From NCBI GenBank assembly GCA_037043015.1, contig CM073331.1, positions 4,671,501 to 4,735,500 of the forward strand: a stretch of 64,000 nucleotides of DNA. Direction: 5' to 3'. Source of the DNA: Bryum argenteum. Its lineage: Eukaryota > Streptophyta > Bryopsida > Bryales > Bryaceae. The position numbers and the translations under genes were made by a program. Below the pieces are notes generated by a model. It ran no database searches, was not told where the DNA came from, and saw only the letters and a list, made by a program, of their open reading frames with translations. Positions within the stretch are counted from its first letter, which is position 1. The number at the start of each line of letters is the position of its first letter. Shown here piece by piece: positions 47,284 to 64,000 of the stretch.

Positions 47284-50200
47284 ATGAAGGAGGGTGAAAC
47301 GTCCACTCCCTTGACTACTCTGAAACCTAGAACGAAGAGGAGGCGGGGGCGAACAGACTTTTCGAATAGGAAAGCGAGACAAAGGAAGGAAGCACGTAGG
47401 ATGGTAGAATTGGACAAGAACATTCCAAGTACACCTGTGAAAGGTCGGGTAGGTGGGCCGTTTTTAGGTTTGAGATATAGAAGCACTCGTAAACTCAATC
47501 TAGAAGCCATATAGGAAAGAGAAGTTGATTTCGTAAAGGGCAGTATCGACGAGTATATCTGTGAAGGTGAAGCGTTTGAAATGTCCGAAGGGTGTCGGCT
47601 AGAGTTTGAAGACAATCCGGAGTCACCGCAGCCTCCAATCAAAACTATAGAATCTCCGTTAGTGGAGATTGATGACTCTGATTCAGAAGAAGTAAGTCTT
47701 CATTATCATTTATTGGAAATTGTTTCGGAATTGTTTTTGATTAGAACCCTTTAGAAATTTCTCTTATGTATTCCATGTTCATATTTATTTAAGGTTGCTC
47801 CGAAGACATGTGTGGAGGAAGTAAGTGGACTATCTTTGTTAAGAAAATTCGACAAAAAAATTAGGTTTCTTCAGTGTGTAATTGTGTATGTGTAATTGTG
47901 TATGTAGTAATTTTTTAATCAGGAAGTCGAAAAAGCAGTCTCCCTTCAAATCATTCATTATACCTAATGTTTCGAGGTCAATGTGGAGGGGGAGATCCAA
48001 TGTGCTCAAAGTAGAGTTCATACACATGTCTGACCGACCTTTAGGGTTCGCTCGAACTTGATTGTGCTCATACTCCCGTCTACTTCTCCATACGAACCAG
48101 ATGACAGAAGGAGAAGGGTTTCGGGTTACAAGGCACTTCGAAAGAGGAGGAGGGCGCAGGAAGGGCGACGGGTTTCAAAACGAGGTGCACAGCAGCTACG
48201 TGAGGCAAGGCTTCATGGTTGAGGGTAATGCGGAGGCGATGGGAGGTGATGGGAGGCCGACTAAGCGAGGCGGCACTGTCGAGGAGCAGGTGGGAGAGGA
48301 CGACCGTGCGAGAGAGCAAGAGCAAGAAGGCGAGGACGAACAAGCGGATTGGGAGGAGCATGCGGACGCCAAGCTCGTGAAGAATGGAGCCGATGAAGAT
48401 GAGGGCAGCGGCGAGGTAAGTCAATACTCTTAGAAGAGAATCCGACCGTAAAGGGTGGGGAGGGGTTAGACAGAGAGAGTTTGGTGCAGGTGAGCAAGAG
48501 GGAGGGGTAGGCAAGCTGGGTGGTGCGGTTGAAACCCTGGAAACCCACTGTCGGAGCAGACAGTGGGCCGCGAGGTCGGCAGTAGGGATCGTAAGTACGA
48601 GAACGGGAAGAGGGCGAGAAGGTGGCCGCGTCCAAGGTAATCAGTGTCAATGACCCGCTCCGATTCGGCGGCGTCACCATGTACCAGAAGGATTGGGAAA
48701 TCTCAGTTGTGCAGCTCCGGGTGGACGGCAGCGAGCCTTACAATTTGGCTACGGCGCCACTGCAATCCGGTGATAACAAGCTGTTTGGGAATTTTCTACC
48801 ATGCTCAGCTGATGGCAAGGGTATTTCTGTCCTTGCTCGTGACCTTCAAACCGTGGTGTTCTTTGATCAGCAAGGCAATTTTGTTGGTGTTCGTCGTCCT
48901 GGTTCTTGAAAAGCTATCGAGGTTGATAAGGTGGGTTACCTCCTACCTGTCGTTCCATATTCCTGAACATTTAAAAAGGCGCTCCTTTGCATTACACCCA
49001 TTAATAGCACGGAATGGGTAATCTCAAAGCATGACCGGAGCTTATATGTTTCTTATGAACGCCTCTAATAGCCTGGCTCAATACTCCATTTAAGCTCGTG
49101 TGCTTGTCCTTTTGGGTTCTTTTGTCCTTTTGCTGGTGGGGACATTTGTTTTGATCTCAGCTTGGCTGGCTACAACAATCTTCTCGGAGGCAGCTGTTGA
49201 ATTCAAGGACTTCAGCACGTCACTTCTCAATCTCTTTGTGTTGTTGACAACTGCAAACAACCCTGTTGTTTGGGCTTCAACATACAATGCAAACCGCTTT
49301 GCATTCTTCTTTTTCTTCTTCTACATGGTTCTGGGGCTGTACTTCAACTTGAGAGCGGCTTTCAGTTTATTAGATTCACGTCATCAAGAATGGATCGATG
49401 GTGCAACAATGGTTTCTCTTTTCCTTGCCATTGGTCGCTATAGGTAAGCTCTTGGTACAATGTCATTGAGAAGCGGATCCGGTCAATTGTGCATGAGAGA
49501 ACGAGATGTTTCCCGCATATTTTTGGGTAGGAATAAGTTGTAACATGATCGATCAAACCATCAAAGCTTGCTTCACAATTGATTATTTTCAAAGTGTACC
49601 CACAAGTCGATGCCGCAGTAAATTACTGTGTCAAATTTATAGTCCAGAGTCTCAACAATAATATTGGTGCTTGGATGTGGTATAGGCATATAACTGATAT
49701 TCGAGCTCGAGCAAGCCGACTTTTCCTTGCTCTCAACTAGCGTGGAGATTTCAAGACCTGGTCTGATGAGTTTGAGGAACTCTGTGATGTTATCGCCAAA
49801 GAGGTGGAAAGGCAACCAGACATTGCACAGCTGAAGAGGCTCCGATGCAATACCGACCTCCACTTTGTGAAACACCCTTGCGGAATTCTTGCGCCATCCG
49901 CATCAGTTCACCCTCCCAATTTTGAATTGTCATCGGGCCTACAAACCCACTATCGGAGCAGACAGTGGGCCGCGAGGGCGAATCCGGGGCTGTGTGCGAT
50001 CTCGTCAGCCTCTAAGCATCAGGTTGATTAGGTAGGCTTTATCAGGACATGATTTCAATTGAGCGTCTTTAGTAGGTGAGCATCGATGTGGTGCTTATTG
50101 ATGATCATTTCGAAACTTTAGAAAATATTGCACGCACTCAGGGAGCAAGAGTTGGCTCAATCGGGATGCGTCCGGAGGTTTGGGTAATATTCTGAAACAG

Positions 50201-53200
50201 GAATCAACTGGTTCAATTCAAACAGGTATAAGTCGAACCGCCTTGTGATATTCAGTGTTGATTCTTGAGTTGTATAGAGCATTTTGTAATCTTATTTAGT
50301 AGTGCATCGAAGTCTCCTTCAAATACTACTCGTTGACATGTGTTTCATTGTCATGCAAGATATGAAAGATTGGACGGGTACATTACTAGTTGAAGACCGT
50401 TCACCTGATGTTGTTGCGTCTTCTCTATGGCAAATCTTTGGCTGCAAAAATGGTGCGTCCAGTCTCTCTATCCAGACGACCTCTTTCACTTAAAATGATT
50501 CATGGTAACTGTTCTTGGTTCTCACTTTTGAATGTGATACAGTCAGTTACTGAACATCCTTGTATTAGTTGGTTTCAAGAAAATTCATAGCGTGACTTAT
50601 CTACACCTTTTGAAACTTCTCTTTTACACTGTTTAAGCTGTTTACACTCTTTAAGCAGATTTTGTGGAAGCTGCTACTTTTAGTTTTACTAATTAGTTTG
50701 AATCAATCAATCAGGCTCTATACGCATATTCTTAAGCGTAGTGTCGGGTGAAGTTATGTATCACTGACATCGAATTGGTGTATGCAGGTGGGATTTTTGC
50801 TTCCACCAAGGTCGAGTCGTAGAGCATATAAATGGGCATTTTGATGTTGTGCACAAACAGTTTCACTCCAAATGGCACTCATGGTAGGTCACAAGTTTGC
50901 AAGATTTGCGTTTGTTGAAACTGAACAGTAGTTACTGATGGTCTTCATGGGCATCATGTGCAGGAGGGACGCTTAGTGCAGCATACAATCTTCGGGGCTC
51001 AGTCATGGTACCCCGGGGTTTGAATTTTCGGATCGGATGCGCCAGACTCCGGAATTCTTGCACCATCCGCATCAGTTTACCCTCCCAAATTTGAATCCTC
51101 ACCGAGCCTGCAAACCCACTGTCGGAGCAGACAGTGGGCGGCGAGGGCGAATCACCGAGCCTCCAAACCCACTGTCGGAGCAGACAGTGGGCCGCTAATT
51201 GAACTCGGTCCAATGCTAATTAGGGCAGAGAAACTTCAACTCTGGTAGGGCAGGTCTATTCTCCTCTTTGTCGATTACAGGATACGGGCAGTTTTGATTG
51301 ACCGTCTCGGAAGAGACAAAACGTTGGCTAGTGCTGATCTTCAAAATTGTGGTTGTATGTAGGCTTCTAGGTACTCCCAACGAGACCACGAGTCGCCAAC
51401 ACCGTGATTGGCACGAGTTTCCTCAATGGAGGCCTCATGATCTGTCTCTTGGGCTTAGCACCGTTGGCCTCGACCTTAGCGCCGTCTGAGGCTCAGAAGT
51501 TACAATAGTATTCGAAAGAGCAACGATTGGAGGCTTTTTCTTGGAGAATAATGTTCTTGGGTCGATTTGATCATTGAAGAGTTTCATGTATGAGTTGTGC
51601 ACAAAAGGTTTGACTCATTGTCATGGCTATGGAGTGATGCACAGGTTCAAGATAATGTAAGTTTTTCAACCACATTTTGTGTTGATTCTTGAAATCGGAT
51701 GTTAAGGGTAGCTTTGACATGTTTTGCTCGCTCTTCGTTGTATTGATTTGCGTACTTGGCGTTTCAGACTTTCAGGGATTTGAAGCCACAGAACTTGTTG
51801 GTGGATAAACAAACTCCCCTTCTCAAGATTGTAGACTTGGGGTTAGGTCGAGCATTCACCGTGCCGATGAAGAGCTACCGTCACTGAGCCTGCATACCCA
51901 CTGTCGGAGCAGACAGTGGGCCGCGAGTGGGCCGCGAGGGCGAATCACCGAGCTCAGAAACCCACCGGTCGGGAGCGCATGTGGGCGCGAGGGCGAATTA
52001 CCGAGCTTGTATACCCACTGTCGGAGCAGACAGTGGGCGGCGAGGGCGAATCACCGAGCTTGTATACCCACTGTCGGAGCAGACAGTGGGCGGCGAGGGC
52101 AAATCACCGAGCTTGTATACGGTCCACTTTCGGAGCAGACAGTGGGCGGCGAGGGCGAATCACCGAGCTTGTATACCCACTGTCGGAGCAGACAGTGGGC
52201 CGCGAGGGCAAATCCGGGGCTTTGTGCGGTCTCGTCGTCGTTTAGGCGTTCACCCTCTTGGGACGGTTTTTGAATCGTCACCGAGTCTGCAAACCCACTG
52301 TCGGAGCAGACAGAGGGGCACAAGGGCGAATAAGGGGTTGTGTATGGTCTCGTCGTCGTCACTGCGTTCGCCTCAAGTAGCCGCCTTTGGAATTGTCACC
52401 GTGCCTGCAAACCCACTGTCGGAGCAGACAGAGGGGCGCAAGGGCGAATAAGGGGTTGTGTATGGTCTCGTCGTCGTCACCGCGTTCGCCTCAAGTATCC
52501 GCCTTTGGAATTGTGACCGTGCCTGCAAACCCACTGTCGGAGCAGACAGAGGGTCGCGAGGGCGAAGCAGGGGTTGTGGGACCTTGTAGTCGTGTTCGCG
52601 TTCCCCCCTCGATGCTCAGCCGGACCGTGCCATATTTTTATATATTGATTTACTTCTGTAGAATGGTTCTCACATTATAGACAATACAATGTGGCTTTCT
52701 TTACTATCCTTTCAATTGTTTTTAATATTCTGTTGATGTTCTCTTTTAGGAGTCGTCTCATCACATCACGGAGTCCGAAGACCATGCCCAGATTCCGAAG
52801 GAAACGGAGGTATTTAAAGTGATTCGAACTTTAGAATTTTGTGGAATGGTTCATTTATAGCTTCAATTTTCTTTCCGTTCACTTCTTTAATCGCTTGGTC
52901 GTTAAAAGGCGTACATGATTTGGTCATATGTGGCTCAACGAATTTGAAATTAGACTTTTATTAACACTTTTATTAACGAGATGATTTCGTGATTTTTTCA
53001 GTATGATCTTCTCTAATGTTTTCACTTTTCGATGAGTTGAGATTCAATATTTAATTGTATAATATTTGTCAGGAATTTCAAAATCAAGACGTGTTGCCAG
53101 CAACTTCCTGTCCCATTGACTTGAACAACGCTCTTGAAAGCGAAGTGCGGCATCGAACACAACACAAGGTGGATTCAATCAACGTCATCAACAGCCTTTG

Positions 53201-53201
53201 A
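47284..53201 (+). CDS. small basic-acidic protein gene with four exons and a 4.9-kb intron full of gene fragments
   Basis: Tentative model: exons 47284-47691, 47794-47820, 52750-52809 and 53073-53201, all with GT-AG borders and all phase 0, so reading continues cleanly to a TGA at 53199. The product of about 207 residues starts basic (RTKRRRGRTDFSNRKARQRK), then becomes acidic and contains IESPLVEIDDSDSEE, like a SUMO-interacting motif. The neighbouring transposase has a comparable LLSDSDDD. One in-frame TAG (47512-47514) interrupts exon 1, so the gene is broken or read through. Family unknown. It may be the second gene of the adjacent MULE. The exon chain is inferred from splice sites and phase only. 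Confidence 0.45.
48062..48416 (+). other. exon-like fragment of unknown origin inside the large intron
   Basis: An open stretch ends in an acidic Glu/Gln/Asp-rich segment (REQEQEGEDEQADWEEHADA) directly before a GTAAGT donor at 48416, so it looks like the 3' edge of a captured exon. No family recognised; the opposite strand is also open because of base composition. Confidence 0.3.
48544..48567. repeat. hairpin module copy 1
   Basis: Stem CCCACTGTC, loop GGAGCA, stem GACAGTGGG, with CCGCGAGG immediately after. Lies about 80 bp upstream of the CCS1 fragment. Confidence 0.95.
48622..49020 (+). pseudogene. CCS1: CCS1/ResB (plastid cytochrome c biogenesis) gene fragment
   Basis: The intact protein is a thylakoid system-II haem ligation factor. 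Here only a part from its lumenal region remains: ISVNDPLRFGGVTMYQKDW, then a variable stretch, KLFGNFLPCSADGKGISVLARDL and FVGVRRPGS, as in plant CCS1. A TGA follows at about 48907, after which homology is weak. No start region, N-terminal membrane helices or C-terminus is present. The fragment lies just 3' of hairpin copy 1 (48544) and 5' of the TPC1 fragment. Confidence 0.85.
49094..49848 (+). pseudogene. TPC1: TPC1 two-pore channel gene fragment
   Basis: The intact protein is the vacuolar two-pore cation channel. Recognisable: the end of the first six-helix domain with pore (LLNLFVLLTTANNPVVWAS, then FFFYMVLGLYFNL), joined directly to RAAFSLLDSRHQEWIDG, the first EF-hand region. The normal helix-to-EF-hand linker (VTNLILAV region) is missing. 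After about 300 bp of decayed sequence comes DFKTWSDEFEELCDVIAKEV (49750-49810), which matches the second EF-hand region. The order is normal but incomplete. Homology stops shortly before the conserved module that carries hairpin copy 2. Confidence 0.85.
49880..50005 (+). repeat. hairpin module copy 2 with long conserved left flank
   Basis: The hairpin is at 49946-49969 with one stem mismatch. The left flank (GGAATTCTTGCGCCATCCGC, then a CAGTTCACCCTCCCAA block) is nearly identical to 51047-51090. The right flank CCGCGAGGGCGAATCCGGGG matches 52200-52219 with one change. This shows the repeated unit is at least about 120 bp. Confidence 0.9.
50788..50883 (+). other. exon-like fragment of unidentified gene
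   Basis: An open stretch with an AG acceptor before and GTAGGT after encodes a Trp/His-rich peptide (WDFCFHQGRVVEHINGHFDV). It looks like a captured exon, but I cannot name the source gene. Confidence 0.35.
51040..51200 (+). repeat. hairpin module copies 3 and 4
   Basis: Perfect hairpins at 51115-51138 and 51168-51191, 53 bp apart, separated by GCGAGGGCGAATCACCGAGC. The long left flank of copy 2 is repeated before copy 3. Confidence 0.92.
51362..51489 (+). pseudogene. CDKB: B-type cyclin-dependent kinase fragment, C-lobe exon
   Basis: RLLGTPNETTSRQHRDWHEF followed by PQWRPHDLSLGLSTVGLDL matches the plant CDKB C-lobe (normally RLLGTPNE, then DWHEFPQWKPQDL). It ends at a TGA. It lies upstream of the fragment coding for the earlier catalytic-loop part, so exon order is reversed relative to a functional gene. 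Confidence 0.85.
51577..51884 (+). pseudogene. CDKB: B-type cyclin-dependent kinase fragment, catalytic-loop exons
   Basis: Two exons, 51577-51644 and 51776-51884, with a clean GT-AG intron, encode KSFMYELCTKGLTHCHGYGV, MHRDLKPQNLLVDKQ, then LKIVDLGLGRAFTVPMKSYRH. The DLG triplet and RAF context are typical of plant CDKB. A stop follows YRH directly, and hairpin copy 5 begins 10 bases later. N-lobe and activation-segment continuation are missing. Confidence 0.88.
51885..52600 (+). repeat. hairpin module array, copies 5 to 13
   Basis: Hairpins start at 51897, 51961 (degenerate), 52014, 52067, 52123 (one arm altered), 52176, 52294, 52412 and 52530. Copies 52014 to 52176 are spaced about 53 bp; the last three are about 118 bp apart and share a decayed right stem (GACAGAGGG). 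Spacer sequence is nearly the same in each unit (GCGAGGGCGAATCACCGAGC). Open frames run through the array on both strands because the 53- and 118-bp units contain few stops; these are not genes. Confidence 0.92.
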
Positions 53202-53204
53202 ATT

Positions 53205-53875
53205 CAACCCTTGAAGAAGTCGCGGTTGCTTGGGGTGAGAGTACGCTAGACTACACACGTTCTGGCAGAATTTCAGCAAAGGGAGGGTGTACCGCGAGTA
53301 TCATTTGCACTCCGAGTACAATGCAGCGAGCGCGGGCGCGCCATGCGGGGGTGGCCGCGACAGTGTAGCCTCGAAGTTTTTTGTCACTTACAGCGCCAAT
53401 CAAGTCCGCATCGATTTAATGGGATGCCTTAATGGTATTAAGGGGGCTCATTAGTGTAGGTAAGTCCATGGCGGGGGTTAGTTAATGGGTGGGTCCATAA
53501 TTTAATACACATTCGTCATTTCGTCAAGTAAGGATTTAGGATCACTTTGTTTGGGAAGTTTTCGACACAATCCGATTATTATCCCCTTTCTCATAAAAGC
53601 ATTCGGTAATTTTGTATGATACCTACATGATACTTGGGTGATACCCATGTGATACTTAGGTAATATTTAAATCACGAGTCGGAAAAAATCCTAACTCTTT
53701 CAAATTGAATCGGTAATTTGACAACTTCATTCAATTTGAATTAGAATTGACTCGTTGGATCTCCCGATCATTATTTAGGATGAAGATTGAAGGAAGAGTT
53801 CTTCAAAGTTTCACCTTCTCATCTAAGATATAGAAGGTAAGGTTAGGGCTCAACTAGATTTAGTAGAATTTTAAA
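53205..53875. other. gap with short imperfect repeats
   Basis: GC-rich up to about 53370, then AT-rich. A TGATAC-based imperfect repeat of about 16 bp occupies 53616-53670. No gene. Confidence 0.5.
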
Positions 53876-53885
53876 ACTTCCTAGC

Positions 53886-53946
53886 CTCGATAGTTGCAAA
53901 CTTGGTAGCCTCGATAGTTGAGAACTTGGTAGCCTCGATAGTTGAA
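53886..53946 (+). repeat. 24-bp tandem repeat, about 2.7 copies
   Basis: CCTCGATAGTTG is repeated three times at 24-bp spacing with AACTTGGTAG between copies. Confidence 0.9.
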
Positions 53947-54012
53947 CAGTATAGAATATATATATGAACACAATATTGGAGGAAGAGATAGGCCTCCCTT
54001 TACTCTTCTGCT

Positions 54013-54402
54013 CTCAAGTTCATTTATTTCTGTTATGAAGTTTGCAAGCTTTTGGATATTTCTTTTTGTTAAGTTCATTGATTTTTGTTATGAAGTTTGC
54101 AAGCTTTTGGATTTTTCTTTTTGTTAAGTTCATTGATTTTTGTTATGAAGTTTGCAAGCTTTTGGATATTTCTTTTTGTTAAGTTCATTGATTTTTGTTA
54201 TGAAGTTTGCAAGCTTTTGGATTTTTCTTTTTGTTAAGTTCATTGATTTTTGTTATGAAGTTTGCAAGCTTTTGGATATTTCTTTTTGTTAAGTTCATTG
54301 ATTTTTGTTATGAAGTTTGCAAGCTTTTGGATTTATCTTTTTGTTAAGTTCATTGATTTTTGTTATGAAGTTTGCAAGCTTTTGGATTTTTCTTTTTGTT
54401 AT
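54013..54402 (+). repeat. 55-bp minisatellite, seven copies
   Basis: A unit containing TTAAGTTCATTGATTTTTG and TTTGCAAGCTTTTGGAT repeats every 55 bp. Alternate copies end GGATATTTC or GGATTTTTC, so the array probably grew by duplication of a 110-bp dimer. Confidence 0.95.
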
Positions 54403-54479
54403 TGGTTAGTTCTTTTTCTTTTTCCATGCTTGCCTCATAGGTGGAATGAAGGTACTATGAATCCACTTCAATTCCCTTA

Positions 54480-55920
54480 AAGACTTAATCGTATTACAAT
54501 ATATTTACATGAGTCTAAAAAAACGATTATATAATTTCTTAGCTTGTTATATATCTTTGCATCATACTCCTTGAATACATAGTAATTAAATCATGAATTA
54601 ATAATATCATGAATTAATACACATTATGATCATCTATGAACATCATAAAATCCCCTAGGGTTTAGGGTTTAATAGGGTAACAAAAATCTTAAAGAATGAG
54701 AGGTCTCAGTCAATATTATTAGTAAGTACTTAGAATGAATTGTACAAATTTACATAGGAATTTGTAGTCAATATTATTTGTAAGTAAGAATGAATTGTAT
54801 AGATTTACATAGGGATTTGTATTGACTGTGTACCATATCATTATCATTCAAGTTGTTTTTTATGGAGTTCGTAATCATAGAAGTTGGTTTAGGTTATGGT
54901 TAACATACTTTACTTTTACACGGTGTGTGAGCTTTGATATGTTCGTGATCAAAGGGACTTATTTTTGTTTATAGTTTGCTAAAAAATAGTAAGGGCTTAG
55001 TCCATTCACTTGTGTAGGATTAAATTTCTTTTAGCACTGCCTTATTGGCAAATGCGTAAGTACTACATGTATCATAGAGTTAATTGGAATCCTTCGTTAT
55101 AAAAGTTTAAGTACCTAATTATTGAAGGTGGTTTAGAGATTAATATTTATGAACTTTGATTATTTTGTGTGAATTAAGAATATGATTGAGATTTTTAAGT
55201 ACTATGTACATGGAAAACAAAGTAAAATAGCCAAGTTATTGATGAATTCAGTTATATTACACTTCAATTTTATCCTAGTAAGATTACATAAATAATTCTT
55301 AAATCTTTGTTTTCAATCTTCATAGTATACTTAATTTATATCAACATTTTGTTATAGATCTTAATGATCAATGCAATTCACTTAGTTCTTTTGTTTGTTA
55401 TAATAGTTTCACTTTGATGGAGAGTCACACATTAAATCTTGAACCCAGTGTTTGTGGTTTTAATTACTATTGACATGTACAAAATTTTCGAGCAATTTGT
55501 TTCATAGCCAGGTGATACTAATTTTGGTTACCATACTTCACTACATCAATCGGGCCATACATTACCTAAACGCAATCATTATTTATTTTAGTAAGTCTTC
55601 GTGTTACTCATTATACATTTGATATCATTCCTATACATCACCTAAACGCAATCATTATTTATTTCAGTCTTAGTGTTAGATACTCATTATAGATTTGATA
55701 TCATTTTCGTATATTACTTACCTAAACGCAATCAATATTTATTTTAGTCTTGGTGTTACTCATTATAGATTTGATATGTTACATATACTCAAGCCGATTT
55801 GTACATGAAACATTTAGATAGTGTGGTACATCTAAACTTAGGGATGATTATTACCTATGTATAGCAAAATCATCTCATGCTATATAGGGTAAGAACTACA
55901 AATCAAAGAAAAATGGAAAT
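54480..55920. other. AT-rich gap
   Basis: No gene. It contains a short telomere-like run near 54656-54672 (AGGGTTTAGGGTTTA), a duplicated block around 54705-54815 (AGTCAATATTATTAGTAAGT / AGTCAATATTATTTGTAAGT followed by GAATTGTA) and a three-copy repeat at 55556-55780. Confidence 0.6.
55556..55780 (+). repeat. three-copy imperfect tandem repeat, about 70-90 bp unit
   Basis: ACCTAAACGCAATCATTATT and the following TGTTACTCATTATAGATTTGA segment occur three times with small gaps. Confidence 0.85.
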
Positions 55921-56044
55921 TGCTTACCGGCTTAGCAGGTTGACGGGCAGGCCTCCATTCGGATGACAGGTGACCACCGGTGGAAGGAACGTGGTAACCG
56001 GTGGCAGGCAGTCGTCGTCTCGCACCTTTCACGCGACTGGGGGG

Positions 56045-56530
56045 AACGACTACTATCTGTTTTTTTGAACTTTGCTGCAGCTGCCGGCGTGAGAGAGAGT
56101 GAGTCCTGCGGTTTTCATCGTCATTGAGCGCATGAGGGTCTGGAGGCGAGGGGATGTTTTAGAAGCTGCGGTGCAGGGTACCACTTTCATTCCGAACTTT
56201 AGTACTGAAGTAGCTGTTTTTTTGAACTTCGCTGCAGCTGCCATGCCGGTGTGAGAGAGAGTGAGTCCTGCAGTTAGCATTGAGCGCATGAGGGTCTGGA
56301 GGGGAGGTTTTAGAAGTTGCGGTGCAGTGGTTTTCATTTGGTACGTTAGTAGTGAACATTTGCTGAGTGGAGGGAACGAGTGACTGCCCGGTTTTCTGAA
56401 CTTTGCTGTAGGTAGCGGCCTGAGTGAGAGTGAGCCATTTCGTGTTTCAGCGCAACGAGGGTCTCCAGGGGAGGTTTTAGAAGCTGGGGTGCAGGGTGTT
56501 TTGCATTTCGTGGTTTAGTATTGAACATTT
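56045..56530 (+). repeat. triplicated leader segment, about 160-bp unit
   Basis: Three units share TTTTTTGAACTTTGCTGCAG, GAGAGTGAG, GAGGGTCT(G/C)(G/C)AGG and GGTTTTAGAAGCTG(C/G)GGTGCAG. They lie directly upstream of the gene starting at 56777 and may be part of its promoter or leader. Minus-strand frames through them are repeat artefacts. Confidence 0.85.
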
Positions 56531-56776
56531 GCTGATTGGGAGGTGAAGTTCGAGAAGTTTTCTAGTCGGCTCAGATTGATTTCGAAGGTAACCTCTAACT
56601 AGTACAACTGCTCATGTGCGTGATTTGCAGGGTTTCTAGTTCTGCTAGATGATTTCAGTGTTTTCTAGTTGTTGTGGGAGATGATGAAGGCGTTCTGTGT
56701 TAGTCTGCTGTATGTTAGTGTTTCCTTTCTGAACCCGTTTGGACTGTGGAGGCTGTGCGTAGTGTGAGAGGCAGTC

Positions 56777-59700
56777 ATGACGAGGAGCTCCGGAGTGACC
56801 CCGAAGACTGCGTCGGCGGGGACGAGGCGTGCGCAAGAGAAGGGCAAGTCGGAGGATAAGAGCAAGTCGACGGTTCTAGACGGAGTGGGGGGGGGGGATC
56901 AAGGTGGGGGGGAGGGGCAAGTCGCAGGAGAAGGGCAAGCTGCAGGACAAGGGCAAGAGCAAGTCCCAGGAGAAGGGCAGGTCGCAAGAGAAGGGGAGAA
57001 CAGCCAGCGACGACGAAGGCGACGAATACGAAGACGATGATGAAGATCCAGTTGATGAAGAAGAGGACGTTGGGGTGCCTGTGGGCAAAAAGCGGGGGCC
57101 GAAGCCAGGCTCCAAAAGAATGAAGCGGTCGGAGAAGGTCTTTCGCACAGTGGAGGACGTTGACGAAGAGATCGATCGGCTGAAGATACGCGATCGGGCG
57201 CTGACATGGGAGGATTTCAGGGACAAGCACGGCCTGCCCAGCACAGGAGACAATCCGAGCAGAAATGCTAAGGGTACCGTGAATGCAGCGTTGATGAAGC
57301 GGTTGTTTGGGAGGAGATACGGGCAAGACGGGCGCGCTGGCTACGGGTGGAGCGGGTGCAAGGAGAAGCGAGTGGTGGATCGGATTAAGTTCCTCCACCC
57401 CATCATTTACCAGACTGGCACGATCCCGCAGCAGATCAAGGTTCACTTCGCCGAAGGAATTGCACTCGAATTTCAGCATGGCGTCGGGAGTGTTGATTGG
57501 TGTGCCTTTGCCGCTGAGGTGAACGCGCGCCAGCGGGACCTTTACATCAACAACATGAAGAAGCTCGAGCACCTGAAGAAAGTAATTGCTTTAGGGCACG
57601 AGGTTGACGTTCGCGGGAACGAGTGGCGGAGCATTTTCGTGCCACCCGAACGAACCGACGTCAAGGAGCCGCTGCAAGTAGCGCGAACGCGAGGGCAGGG
57701 TGGAGGCGGTACCGATGTTTACACGCCTCGGTTAGCCGTGACTGGAGTGAAGGGAGAAGGAGGTCTCACTAAGTCGCACCACGGCGAGACTGGGGACTTG
57801 GACTTTCATTTCGAAAGTTCTGGGATGGGGTCTGGAGTGTGCACAGAGCAGTACGCGAAGGACCAGGGGGAGCACCTGCTCGGCTGGAAGAAGGACCACG
57901 GCCAGAAGCGGCATGGGGAGTTGCAAAGCCTGGTGACGGTTGTCGACATGGAGGTGCAAGGGTACAATTACCTGCTCGACCTCGAAGAGAAGAAGCTCGA
58001 GGTTGCAGAAGCCAAGGTGAAGGAGTCCGAAGCAGTGCTCAAACGATGTAGGGGAAGGCTAGAGCTAAGGCTCTTGCAAATACAGCAAATGGCGGACAAT
58101 GGCGAGGATACTTCGATCGCCAAGTACAAGCTCGAGGGAATTCGGGAGGAGGTCGCTGACGAGGAAGAGAAGTGGTTGGAGGATCTCGGAGAGCTCGGGG
58201 TGAGAAAGGAGGCCGTCAGAACTGCCACGAGGATTGGCCTTGGCCTGCAGCGGCTACTCGACGCGCTGAATGTGGAACTGGCATGCCTCAGGCGTGCGAA
58301 GACCACTACCTGCATGTGGCCAAGACCGATGGTGTACCCGACGAACTTGGAGGATAGGGCGCTCACACCAGCAGCAGTAGAGATGACTAAGTGTTGTTTC
58401 TGCTTGTTGCCTTTCCCCGAATTTGACATTGTGCTGTCCAGCTGCCTTCACATGTATCACCCATTCTGCGCTGCAGTTGTGTTTAGGGACGCAGGACAAT
58501 GTGTAGCAGTAGATTGTGGGGAATACCCGCATCCAAATTGGTACAACAGTTTTGGATGGGGATTTCCTCCTGCAGATTTACGAGATCGAGCTGTTCTCTA
58601 TGGAGTTGCAGAGACCCGGTTTGCAGCGCTCCGGCATCGATCACAGCGCGCCAGGGAGCTCCTCCCGGACAACTATGGTGAGTTCTATTTACTCCTTACG
58701 TCGATCTGTATTCGCACGGCAGTACCTTGGCTATTGAAGCTCCTTTATGTTAGATTATAGCCTTAGTTTGTCTGAATGTGTAGTAGCGGGATAGCCTTTG
58801 TTTGAATGTGTAGTAGCGGGATACACTTCTTCTGTATGTGTAGTACCGGGATAGCCTTTGTCACTGTAGTAAAGAGGCCTAAGTATTGTATTTACGCAAT
58901 TCTGTCCTTCTTACCGGTCAAAGTCTAGTAAGAGTATATATAAATCTTGCTTTGTCATTCAGCCAATGTTACCTTACGCAGACTGAATACTTGCGTACTA
59001 CATGGGTTACATTAGTATCATCAGTTTAGTGAATGGTTATAAACTGTGTCAAAATGTTTAGTAGTAAGTGTACACATGTAGCGTACTAACGGAATTCAGT
59101 CCTTGTTACCTAACACGGTTTTAATACTTTAGTAGTAGTCGTGTTACTTTATATCACCAGTTTTTGTGAACCATTATGCATAGTATCTAAATGTGTAGTA
59201 CTGAGAGTAGAGAAGTATCATACTTTGCAATTCAGACGATGTTACAGAACTTATTCTCAGTACATCATTAGTACATGGCTAACAGTAGTATCTAAATAGA
59301 TCATAAGTGTGAGGGCTCACAATGTAGTCTGTATAGTTTCTGAGTACCAAGAATACCGAGTTATATTACTCTTGTCGAACCTGATACTACACATACTAGC
59401 AATAGTAGTAGTCGTGTTACTTTAGTGTTATAAGTTTTCGTGAATCATTATGCATAGTGTCTAAATGTGTAGTAGTGACAATTCAGTCGTTGTTACGTAA
59501 CTTATTGTCAGTACATCATTAGTACATGGCTAATATTAGTATTTAAATGGATCACAAGTGCGAGGCGCACAATGCAGTGTGTACAGTTTGTGAGTACCAA
59601 AAATACTGAATTATATAGTTACTCTTCTCGATCATGATACTGCACATACTAACAATGGTACTTGAGGTACAAGTAAACTTACATTCCTTCGTGGCTAATT

Positions 59701-61731
59701 GTTTCAGTAGCACCTTCGCCCACGACCACACAGAAGGCCGCAGGTCGTGCACCCGCTCCTCCCGGCCCTGTCGTAACGCTCGACAACCTCCTTCACAGCA
59801 ACCACGGGATTATGGTGACGCGCCAACAAACCCCAGGCAGATTCGAAGCTTTAGTTCAGGAGTTCTCCAGAACGACCGAGCTGAGAGGTGCCAAGGCGAA
59901 GTTGTTTGAGGATGACGAGCCCGCGAGGAACAAGCGAAAAAGAACAGAGCCTGTGAAAATAGGTAGTGCTGTTGTTGATGGAGAAGTGGAGCCTGACCTC
60001 AAGACTGACGAGGACGAGGATACCGAAGATGCTGAGGGCGACGTCAACATGCCGACTCTCCGCGACAGCTCCGGAGACACTCTGCCTGCAGGTGGCGACA
60101 GCAAGAGCAAGAGCGGTGATCAGCAAGACGATGATGAGGATGACGCCGACTCCGGCCAAAACAATTTCTTTGTGCAGGTACACAGTGAATCGAGAAGTCC
60201 TGCAGAGAAGACAATGACTCCTGTGGACAAAACTCCATGCGCAGATAAGACGCCAAGCAGTGAGAAGACTCCGTCACCTGGGTTGCCCGCAATATCACCG
60301 AACACGAGGCCCACAACGAGGTCCACTGCCTCACCGAAGGAGTTGCCCAATGTGACACCGAACATGTCGCCTCCAACGAAGTCCTCTGCCTCACCAAAGT
60401 CTGTGGCTTGGGCAGATCTTATCGCAACACCGACTCCGGAGAAAGGTGAGGAACTATCTTGTTCCTTGAATTCGGAACACAATGAATACTTTTCTGACTT
60501 TCGTTTTTAAATTTTGATGAATTCTGAATTGCGGTTGTGAATTTTGAAGGCGGGACGTCAAGCAGAGGCGGCACAGGAAGTCCACAGCCTTTGAAAACGA
60601 CGCCGCAGACTATAATTGTGCATGCTCTCAGGGCGTCATCAAGTGGCAATCGGGTGGAATGCGTGGGGGTCCCTATCCGGCCTATCGACCTGTTCAAAGT
60701 CTCACCTGCTCGGATCGATGCCCAGGCGGTTGGAGTGACGAGTGCGCCCGAAGGGGAGAACAGCAAGGCTGATGAGGGCGAAATTGAAAACGCCGATGCC
60801 ATTTCCACGGAGACGGTGGTGCGATCTCGAGGAGGCCAAGGAACCGAAGCAAAGCGGCGAGGCGAGTCCGCGCCACGAGAGACTGCGCCCGCTCCCGCGC
60901 GAGCGCCAGAGGAGGCCGCGCGTACGCCAGCGCGAGAGAGGCGCGCGCACTGGCGCCGCGCAGAGGCCGCGCCGAGCTAACGCCACAGAGGCCGCGCCGC
61001 CACAAGAGGCCGCGCCGCGCTAACGCCACGGACAAAGCGGCGCCGCCACGGGAGGTCGCGTTTGCTTCAATGCAACAATCCCAGCGCGCCAGCCAGATCA
61101 AGCGCGCGCGCCACGGGAGGCCGCACCAGCGTCACCGCCACGCGAGGCCGCACCCCCGGCACGGGAGGCCGCGCCCGCGCCTCCGCCACGCGAGGCCGCG
61201 CCCCCGCCACAGGATTCCGCGCCCGCGCCTCCGCCACGGGAGGCTGCGCCAGCCATTCAGCAGGCCGCGCCAACCATTCAGCAGGCCGCGCCAGCCATTG
61301 GAGAGGCCGCGCCAGCCATTCGGGAGGCCGCGCCAGCCATTGGGGAGGCCGCGCCAGCCATTCGGGAGCCCGCGCCCGCGCCTCCGCCACGGGAGCCCGC
61401 GCCAGCCATTCGGGAGGCCGCGCCGACGCCATTACAAGTCGGCGGGGCTGAGGCCGCGCCATCGCCAACAACAGCCGCGCCAGCTCAACAAGAGGTCGCG
61501 CTAGGAGAGGCTGTGAAGAAGACGAGGTCGCTGCTCGAGGTTGAAGGCTCGTGCTCCGTGCCGGGGACTGCAGGACCACGTTTGAAGCGCGCAAGAGGAC
61601 CTGACGTGGAGTCCCCATCGCCTTCCAAGAACTCGCGGAGGAATAGCGGGGACAATAAGAAGCGCAGGGTGAGTGCCACCAGAACGAAGAAGGGGAAGAG
61701 CTCTGGGCCGGGTCGAGGGCGAAGGTCGTAG
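56777..61731 (+). CDS. large charged nuclear-type protein with RING-like zinc cluster and Ala-Pro repeat tail, four exons
   Basis: I do not recognise a named family. Exons: 56777-58677, 59708-60445, 60550-60921 and 61085-61731, all phase-1 GT-AG junctions, about 1,220 residues. Order: Lys/Glu/Gly repeats with QEKGKS units; an acidic stretch (about 70-95); an AT-hook-like KKRGPKPGSKR; a conserved-looking domain (HPIIYQTGTIPQQIKVHFAE); a coiled coil (about 370-470); a RING-like cluster CCFCLLPF...CLHMYHPFCAAV (about 535-560); then long Ser/Thr/Pro-rich and acidic segments with KTP/SPK repeats; a tail of about ten EAAPAI-type units; and a basic end (KKRRVSATRTKKGKSSGPGR). Near 56885-56896 an 11-base G run shifts the frame between the ATG and the rest, so either the copy is broken, the run is misassembled, or translation begins at 56904. 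Exon 4 splicing removes a stop at 61021. Probably chromatin-associated. Confidence 0.6.
58678..59707 (+). other. intron 1 of the RING-like gene, with internal duplications
   Basis: Holds three copies of a GAATGTGTAGTAGCGGGATA repeat at 58774-58862 and a two-copy duplication of about 280 bp (about 59120-59405 and 59409-59660, sharing CATCATTAGTACATGGCTAA). The donor follows the codon for Tyr-Gly; the acceptor is TTGTTTCAG at 59707. Confidence 0.65.
61105..61500 (+). repeat. GC-rich codon repeat encoding Ala-Pro-rich tail
   Basis: The 18-base theme GAGGCCGCGCCAGCCATT and shorter GAGGCCGCGCC variants repeat about 15 times inside exon 4 of the RING-like gene. Reading frames on the other strand and in other frames stay open only because of this composition. 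Confidence 0.9.
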
Positions 61732-61892
61732 TGTGGGTGGGAGTAGAGTCCAGGGCTGTTTGAAGGGAATGGGCTTGCTAGAGTTAAGCCCGGTGATGTA
61801 TACTTGTTTTGATTATACATGTTTTGCGTCAATATCGGTGTCAGTGTCGTGAATTTCATTCACATTCTAAATCTTAACTTTGCTTACTAAAA

Positions 61893-63008
61893 GGTGGGGC
61901 TGTTGGGGTGTGGAACCCTACAGGACTCCGACAATTACATGATTGAAGATCTGTCTAGGGGCGTAGAGCCCATCGCAATTCCGGTTGTGTCTGCAGATGT
62001 ACCTTTTCCGAGTTTCCGGTATATCAATTCCAGTAGCGGTTTATGATCGAGCAATCGTCGTCAATGCTTTGTCTACCCCGGACGTTGGGTCGCATCGCGA
62101 TTGATTGCCAGGGGAGATTGCTTGACGAACCTTGAGTGTTCGTGTTCTGGAGCAGGGGGCGATCGGTTTGCCTATACAGTCGGGGGAGTCCTGCGCAATG
62201 TGTTTTTGCAAAGGCTCATACGGGAGGCGTCTGACTCTACAAAAGTCAACAATTCATGCACTTGCATGCATGTAGCTAAAGGCATCGAGGTACATTCTAA
62301 GTCGCATTCGCAAAGATAGGCCTCCAACCTTTATTAGTGAGTGCAATGTTAAGTGTGGATGTCACAGTCGTGTGGCAATCGTGTGGTACAGCGGGGAATG
62401 ACGTACCGTGTGGAGATATTTCACACAGGCGGTGCCGGGTGGGGAGTGCGTACGAAGGACTACATTCCGCGTGGTGGGTTTGTGTTTGAGATGACAGGTG
62501 AAATTCTCACCAACGCAGAAAGCGCATTGTTCGAACAAAGAATGCAAAGATGGGCCAGCATATGCCGTTCAAATTGACGCCGATCGGGTCGCTGGAGCGA
62601 GAAATCTTGGATGACGACAGGGCACTTTGTATCGATGCAAGCCGATTTGGGAATGTAGCTTGCTTTGTAAACCGCAGGTATGCTGTGGCCAAGGTTTAAG
62701 ATTCTTAGTAAATGCAATGGGTTTTTTGCAATTGTAGCAACCAAAGCTTCAAGACATCAATCAATCACACTATGTTCCTTGAATGTGACTGCAGGTGCCA
62801 AGACGGTAACCTAATCAATGTTCCGGTGTTAGTAGGGAGGTTGGACCGAAGCTTCTACCGGGTTGCCTTCTTCACAACGCGAGAAGTGCATCCGTACGAG
62901 GAGCTTACATGGGATTACGGGATCGATTTCTTGCAGGAGGATTCGGAGTTGCCGGTGTTTGCTTGTAAGTGTGGAAGTGAATACTGTAGGGACAACAGGA
63001 GGAAGTGA
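61893..63008 (+). pseudogene. SUVR: SUVR-type histone H3K9 methyltransferase (pre-SET, SET, post-SET), disrupted
   Basis: SUVR proteins methylate histone H3 lysine 9 in plants. Pieces in correct order: PFPSFRYINSS, then pre-SET CSCSGAGGDRFAYTVGG and FISECNVKCGCHSR; SET core GNRVVQRGMTYRVEIFHTGG, GWGVRTKDYIPRGGFVFEMT, GEILTNAE, YAVQIDAD, then LDDDRALCIDASRFGNVACF. A clean intron (62678-62794) leads to RCQDGNLINVPV, EELTWDYGIDF and post-SET CKCGSEYCRD. The reading frame is broken at least four times (stop at 62044; shifts near 62317, 62369, 62535 and 62600), and the SUVR N-terminal half is missing. The last exon is intact. Either a decaying copy or heavily misassembled gene. Confidence 0.88.
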
Positions 63009-63014
63009 TCCCGA

Positions 63015-63235
63015 TTTCTCCACTTAGTATGTTATGCACAAATCGTACACACTAGGTTCATTTTGAAGTACTTATTTTATGCAGAAAGTGTACACACTCT
63101 GTTCATTCGGAAGTATGCTTAGTATAATTTTTCAGAGATATGTGCAATCCGGACGTAGTTCACATGGTACATTTTGTACACACATCAGACATTATTAGTA
63201 GACATGCTTATGTAGCATGACTACAACACTTATTT
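63015..63235. other. 3' flank of the SUVR-like gene
   Basis: AT-rich, with two further diverged units of the downstream 31-bp repeat (TTTTATGCAGAAAGTGTACA near 63078). Confidence 0.5.
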
Positions 63236-63420
63236 TATGCACAAATGGTACACACTATTTTTATTTTATGCACAAATTGTACACACTATTTTTATTTTAT
63301 GCAGAAATTGTACACACTATTTTTATTTTATGCAGAAATTGTACACACTATTTTTATTTTATGCAGAAATTGTACACACTATTTTTATTTTATGCAGAAA
63401 TTGTACACACTATGTAGCAT
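63232..63420 (+). repeat. 31-bp minisatellite, about six copies
   Basis: TTTTATGCAGAAATTGTACA with CACTATTTTTA follows a 31-bp period. All three plus-strand frames are open through it, giving three overlapping false ORFs. Confidence 0.95.
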
Positions 63421-63424
63421 GTTT

Positions 63425-64000
63425 ACAACACTTATGTAAGCCAGGGGTGTGAATTCCCTACTGTGCACATTATACAGTATTTGTTCCATAACTGCCTCAC
63501 CAATGCAGATTCAATCGAATTCTATTCCATCGGGCCTTTCTCCAGGACCTTACGTTACTGCAAATTTAGTGCTAATGTACTTTACCTCGTGTTTCATTTT
63601 TCACATCATTCTGTGGAATTCTGTGCAACCCTAGAGGGTGAACTTCGGTACTTGACCATCAGAGGCCTTATTTTGGAGAACAAGACATGCTGGTTTTTTA
63701 AGCAACGGGCCGGTTTCAATCAAGAGTACGAAGACCATTGAGAGTTTAGACATCACAATTGCGGTCTCAGTCAAGAGGTCTTAGTCAAGAAGTTAAGATA
63801 CAAGGTATAATGTGCGTAGCAGAAACAAGTACTAAAAGTTACAAACTCAGTAGTATTAATGTATCCGAAGTACCGGTCTGAATGATACAGACTCAATTGT
63901 ATTAATATAACAACCTCAGTAGTATACAATGCGTACTATCCATGTATCTAAAGTACTAGTGTTAATGAAACACAAGTACTTCTATGTAGGATTAAAAGCC
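63425..64000. other. AT-rich window end
   Basis: No supported gene. A frame ending at 63741 (...LTIRGLILENKTCWFFKQRA) follows a possible acceptor (CAATGCAG at 63509) but has no recognised domain. Confidence 0.45.

Follow-up and report, generated by a model that had tools for sequence, protein, structure and literature searches.

The way in which plant transposons acquire fragments from many genes is unsettled, and the question is raised by a stretch of 64,000 nucleotides of Bryum argenteum (assembly GCA_037043015.1, contig CM073331.1, positions 4,671,501 to 4,735,500 of the forward strand; hereafter the window), where copies of a short hairpin alternate with fragments of host genes. Are the hairpins the points at which the fragments were captured, or do they share a location with them for other reasons? 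The hairpins are quite probably an internal cassette repeat of a gene-collecting family of Mutator-like elements (MULEs), whose fragments would be acquired by template switching with no hairpin needed at the junction. Bare coordinates refer to the window, those with a C prefix to the contigs of the genome, and names of the form L0xx to stretches, among them a set of 20, fetched from the same genome.

The hairpin repeat and its transposon family

The repeat is a 24-mer, CCCACTGTC-GGAGCA-GACAGTGGG, with a 9-bp stem and a 6-base loop, and its strand folds at a calculated -16.6 kcal/mol as RNA and -8.8 as DNA. At up to three mismatches the window holds 12 copies, all on the forward strand at 48544-52553 (seven exact, four with one mismatch and one with two), with no further match outside that interval and none in 100 shuffles of the window; a degenerate 13th copy lies at about 51961. 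The initial annotation had counted 13 hairpins in about 4 kb and none elsewhere in the window. Number and confinement stand, identity of sequence does not (7 of the 13 are exact), and its conserved unit of about 120 bp is indeed larger than the hairpin but not of a single size, since tandem units of 53 bp (51926-52214) and of 118 bp (52160-52578) are present.

The genome searched (258.8 Mb, 25 contigs) holds 215 matches, 126 forward and 89 reverse, against none in the control. The places listed for 100 of these, all exact, form together with the window 22 clusters. Each of the 22 is found at a distance of 2.5-12.5 kb from a match to one transposon family's left terminus, which occurs 44 times in the genome at up to two mismatches; positions no more than 12 kb from such a left end make up about 0.4% of the genome. 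Two additional clusters came from other searches. One, at C10:13.62 Mb, is 7.5 kb from a left terminus; the other, at C1:34.36 Mb, is 84 kb from one, but its array borders on a right module and the interval contains pieces of left module. The genome search proposed in the initial annotation therefore finds the module dispersed and not confined to one locus, and elsewhere, too, its copies accompany other, unrelated gene fragments. Sister-subfamily arrays in L054 and L055 carry a variant hairpin, with a stem such as GCCGCTGTC/GACGGCGGT and the loop GGAGCA in most copies.

The family is Mutator-like by its terminal repeats, its 9-10 bp target-site duplications and the fold of its transposase. The window element has terminal inverted repeats (GGATGTTGCTTAGATGTGAGCCACGAGC against GGCAGCTACTAAGATGTGAGCCACGAGC) and a perfect 10-bp duplication, GGGCCTCTTG, at both ends; its right terminus was read in L053 (C11:4768570-4768690). 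Duplications of 10 bp and 9 bp flank L037 and L047, and that of L033 is imperfect; MULEs generally duplicate about 9-11 bp of target. Helitrons have neither target-site duplications nor terminal inverted repeats, and a Helitron was rejected on both counts. The suggestion that the hairpin is itself a transposon end fails, as the actual ends, at 41916 and C11:4768644, are kilobases from the hairpins.

Pfam and PDB sequence searches with the transposase gave no match above cut-off, but its structural model finds its best match, over the catalytic domain, in ISCth4, a member of the Mutator-related IS256 family; on this model the element carries a Mutator/IS256-type RNase-H transposase. A SWIM-type motif lies in the open reading frame (ORF) at 42841-44145, and a WRKY/GCM-type N-terminal zinc domain together with a SWIM zinc finger is typical of MULEs. 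A homologue of 730 amino acids (P0001) is encoded in one ORF, and the corresponding frame in the window is broken in two near 45881-45887. A KDZ-type reading was also considered, for which a literature search turned up no paper. What the initial annotation suspected to be an undescribed gene-capturing element is thus a gene-capturing mobile element, though of a known class.

A second gene, located at L043:5631-9725, lies in the continuation of the window element at C11:4764337-4767931. For its N-terminus the highest-ranking hits in Foldseek and VIA are sulfiredoxin, ParB, Noc and KorB, with Foldseek E values of at least 0.04. Its C-terminal part has a sub-threshold DNA-methylase match, and the pairing of this with a putative ParB/Srx-like fold is unexpected in a DNA transposon.

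Captured gene fragments

The cassette of the window element holds five fragments (A-E, Table 1), for which the genome has matching sequence on chromosomes other than that of the window. Pfam supports the names CCS1, TPC1 and CDK given in the initial annotation: ResB/CCS1 is above cut-off (E 5.7e-6), and Ion_trans/TPC1 (E 7e-4) and protein kinase (E 1e-6) are below the curated cut-off. Fragment E also resembles a diverged exon at C3:29456351 (72%). The CCS1 locus occurs twice in the genome (C3:5683695-5685011 and C3:5361589-5362933), and pieces of it are found in several elements of the family.

Donor searches covered the cassettes of six elements, window included. In L031 a fragment of an FMN-oxidoreductase (OPR-like by eye) matches C10:8.21 Mb and a further captured fragment matches C4:2.69 Mb; those of L034 match C3:15.92 and C5:18.60 Mb, those of L037 C2:6.01 and C6:18.86 Mb, that of L039 C5:4.47 Mb, and L047 holds 2.8 kb matching a gene cluster at C10:12.74 Mb. 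The candidate donor of L039 2970-4134 (C5:4474336-4475679) is separated by 2.7 kb of outside sequence from another member's left end (C5:4471628-4471649), a closeness that may bear on how this fragment was acquired. Module searches covered the left module of the window and the right module of L043. The former gave 45 matches (best 31 of 495 candidates scored), every one at family loci, and the latter 45 matches (best 40 of 69 candidates scored), with no outside gene recognised among them. Gene capture by a Mutator-like family with a cargo cassette is confirmed, and the proposal of fragment capture holds, with different unrelated host fragments in the window and in other elements.

Capture took place from DNA, since the TPC1 fragment in L038 keeps an intron: 182 bp of fragment B lost in the window are retained there and read by eye as exon-intron-exon. 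Capture from spliced RNA was rejected because two donor gaps are intron-like but lack GT-AG borders, and because of the intron in L038.

Hairpins and capture junctions

In the window the gaps between fragment blocks and the hairpins on their two sides are 39/66, 43/38 and 7/18 bp, the last including the hairpin near the end of the CDK-like fragment, which is present as annotated, at 18 bp and not 10 bp. In other elements the gaps are 623/247 and 79/325 bp (L031), 55/726 and 407/41 bp (L034, two fragments side by side), none/83 and 174/116 bp (L037), 183/94 bp (L039) and none/474 bp (L047). This range, from 7 bp to more than 600 bp, rules out site-specific capture at a fixed hairpin phase, and with it the fixed boundary that the initial annotation had named as support for its reading.

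One capture can be followed through filled and empty sites, as the initial annotation had asked. The OPR-like fragment is inserted within the older CDK-like fragment in L031 and L032, and the empty site is preserved in the window (51643/51647) and in L046. CACA is present at both junctions, in a comparison made without the letters of the donor, and is adjoined by a local tandem duplication that is absent from the empty sites. The nearest hairpin in L031 is 247 bp or more from this capture. With variable gaps and a capture away from any hairpin, the view that the module takes part in fragment acquisition is unproven, and hairpins as capture points are not supported.

Rearrangement of the arrays

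The arrays themselves are prone to rearrangement. Among 180 hairpin copies in 21 sequences, a flank, CCGCGAGGGC, is recognisable in 160 and lies on the same side every time, while the loop reads GGAGCA in 112 copies and TGCTCC in 68; the related elements L033 and L037 each contain both orientations between like flanks. The loop alone is therefore inverted relative to its flanks, between groups as well as within these two elements, and inversion of whole arrays, which the opposite orientation in several elements might suggest, was rejected. In yeast, polymerase template switching is described as producing spacer inversion with homogenised arms (PMC8604942). Five of seven indels of at least 15 bp, relative to the two closest relatives, lie within 16 bp of a hairpin, with the caveat that several are changes in unit number and one is probably shared. 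In L040 a block of about 957 bp, hairpins included, is tandemly repeated. The arrays are probably sites of template switching, and the recombination hotspot of the initial annotation is supported for the arrays themselves (unit gain and loss, loop inversion, the L040 block).

The hairpin core is identical across seven group consensuses whose flanks differ, an identity that the three-mismatch threshold of the search favours. Covariation was counted in 40 of 43 distinct hairpins (three were dropped as another hairpin), and these rows had come through a pairing filter, which biases the counts in favour of pairing. Two-sided changes were seen in 14 cells, where shuffling gave 3.7 on average (0 of 500 shuffles); by pair, three show two-sided change against 2.4 (213 of 500), and Watson-Crick changes on both sides occur in two pairs only.

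Alternative explanations

The preferred explanation is that DNA-repair template switching, while the element is replicated or its gaps are repaired, would bring in the fragments, and that the same process may leave local marks in the arrays in the form of loop inversion and of gain and loss of units. No hairpin would be needed at the capture point, and fragments may be retained in the cassette because it is the spacer between the two genes. A rival account has the arrays cause capture: synthesis would stall at a hairpin and move to an ectopic template, and the fragment would be rejoined at another hairpin unit. In favour of this rival, each of the six ends of fragment blocks in the window has a hairpin at 66 bp or less, loop inversion points to template exchange at hairpins, and the indels cluster near hairpins. 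The window cassette, however, holds little beyond units and fragments, so that closeness is partly geometry, and of the 14 block ends in the five other elements searched, 9 lack a hairpin in the adjacent 100 bp (the two neighbouring L034 fragments being counted as a single block). In addition, the OPR-like capture sits inside an older fragment, no hairpin stands where fragments A and B, or C and D, adjoin, and the array indels are partly ordinary changes in repeat number, not all independent. Capture driven by the hairpins is judged distinctly unlikely; a causal role of the arrays in capture is unproven, and it is not required.

Two further explanations concern the nature of the repeat. It may be an ordinary neutral minisatellite that has grown within the element, and slippage and arm homogenisation would then account for its persistence and its perfect arms. 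Tandem units differing between groups (53, 117, 118 and about 126 bp) and arm changes that come in pairs (A-T to G-C and C-G to T-A) lend something to this idea. The core is nevertheless unchanged between groups with strongly diverged flanks, and a variant hairpin persists in the sister arrays, which leaves the idea somewhat doubtful. The 24-mer may instead be a dyad binding site for a dimeric protein, repeated in the shared upstream region of the two divergent genes, possibly for the ParB-like protein of the element itself. This is judged unlikely, as core identity is partly ascertained by the search and the ParB matches of the second gene have Foldseek E values of at least 0.056, with no Pfam hit; in ParB the DNA-binding part is a helix-turn-helix domain. 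An extension of the same idea, very improbable, would have the arrays serve as parS-like sites bound by the ParB-like protein, with its DNA-methyltransferase-like C-terminus, to control, mark or partition the element, bound arrays provoking the template switching that fills the cassette.

Organization of the window element

When full, the element measures about 14-18 kb and consists of two divergent genes with the cassette in between. Ten pairs of left and right ends are spaced at 14.0-17.7 kb and three others at 9.7, 27.6 and 32.6 kb, to which the window element adds a span of 55.2 kb from 41916, nested insertion included. Smaller copies (L033, L037 and L047) measure 5.6-7.9 kb, and L033 and L037 are without most of the transposase region. 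The left module of the window is 94% identical over 6659 bp to L051+L046 and 93% over 6759 bp to L052+L050. Past 53232, 17 of the 17 relatives compared carry on with common sequence and the window copy departs; because its remainder resumes at C11:4764337, with 99% identity to L043, the 39.6-kb sequence up to C11:4764336 is nested in the element, which it splits with a 4-bp overlap at the break. L042 (end 7211) and L043 (start about 4714) apparently belong to a single element as well, whose parts lie about 17 kb apart and overlap by 8 bp, equivalent to window 52020-52027.

Elsewhere in the window, on the forward strand, an ORF of 387 amino acids (33681-34844) has a weak match, below cut-off, to the APT (aerolysin-type) domain, and one of 521 amino acids (23750-25315) resembles by eye a MATE-type transporter.

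Table 1. Features of the element in the window.
Feature	Position	Strand	Remarks
Target-site duplication, left copy, GGGCCTCTTG	41906..41915		identical 10 bp directly after right terminus
Left terminal inverted repeat, GGATGTTGCTTAGATGTGAGCCACGAGC	41916..41943	+	sharp left end common to relatives; matches inverted right end
Left module	41916..48532		conserved in many relatives; stops 11 bp before first hairpin
Transposase gene, several ORFs	42841..46456	-	ORFs 42841-44145, 44280-45887, 45881-46456
Cargo cassette (hairpin arrays and host-gene fragments)	48544..52553	+	
Hairpins (12 starts)	48544, 49946, 51115, 51168, 51897, 52014, 52067, 52123, 52176, 52294, 52412, 52530	+	
Fragment A, CCS1/ResB	48607..49087	+	C3:5683695-5684183(-) or paralogue C3:5361589-5362078(-), both 92%
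Fragment B, TPC1-like	49090..49879	+	C3:20041414-20042378(+), 93-95%
Fragment C	50013..50949	+	C2:16216931-16218380(+), 93-94%; 525 bp of donor absent
Fragment D, CCS1 locus	50948..51076	+	C3:5362167-5362297(-), 92%, or C3:5684272-5684402(-), 89%
Fragment E, CDK-like	51199..51878	+	related sequence C7:13868931-13870325, 75-91%; candidate donor only
Right module start (second gene)	52606..53232	+	resumes at C11:4764337 past nested insertion
Nested insertion, beginning (outside the element)	53233..64000		break relative to relatives

Comparison with known systems

In integron attC arrays, hairpins alternate with captured sequence, as they do in this cassette. Unlike those arrays, the cassette has no fixed recombination point and its host is a eukaryotic transposon; no integrase was seen among the ORFs looked at. 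ISCth4 is the best structural match to the transposase over the catalytic domain, from which the latter differs in a sequence too diverged for detection by Pfam at cut-off. A parallel in cargo exists with Pack-MULEs, which, like the window element, have terminal inverted repeats, target-site duplications of 9-10 bp and more than one fragment taken up, as genomic DNA, from unlinked places in the host; the window element holds such fragments between its terminal repeats. A MULE duplication of 9-10 bp is given in PMC3310237, and Pack-TYPE elements are described as non-autonomous in PMC8903248. Unlike Pack-MULEs, the element of the window has a transposase region (its frame split) and a second gene, as do many relatives, and their fragments sit in a hairpin-array cassette. 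A limited search, with sources available in part, found no description of a transposase-bearing MULE with a hairpin cassette and a ParB-like second gene.

For FB4/FoSTeST in Drosophila, the proposal is that forks stall in the repetitive, rearrangement-prone part of a DNA transposon, which would favour template switches into host genes (PMC8277862). The present family has such a part as well, located in an internal cassette and not, as in FB4, in the terminal inverted repeats. That paper (2021) leaves open whether the template-switching model extends to plant Pack-MULEs. The family described here supplies copies for which donors can be proposed, one capture seen in both its filled and its empty state, and loop inversion as a built-in reporter of template switching, so that the question becomes testable by sequence comparison.
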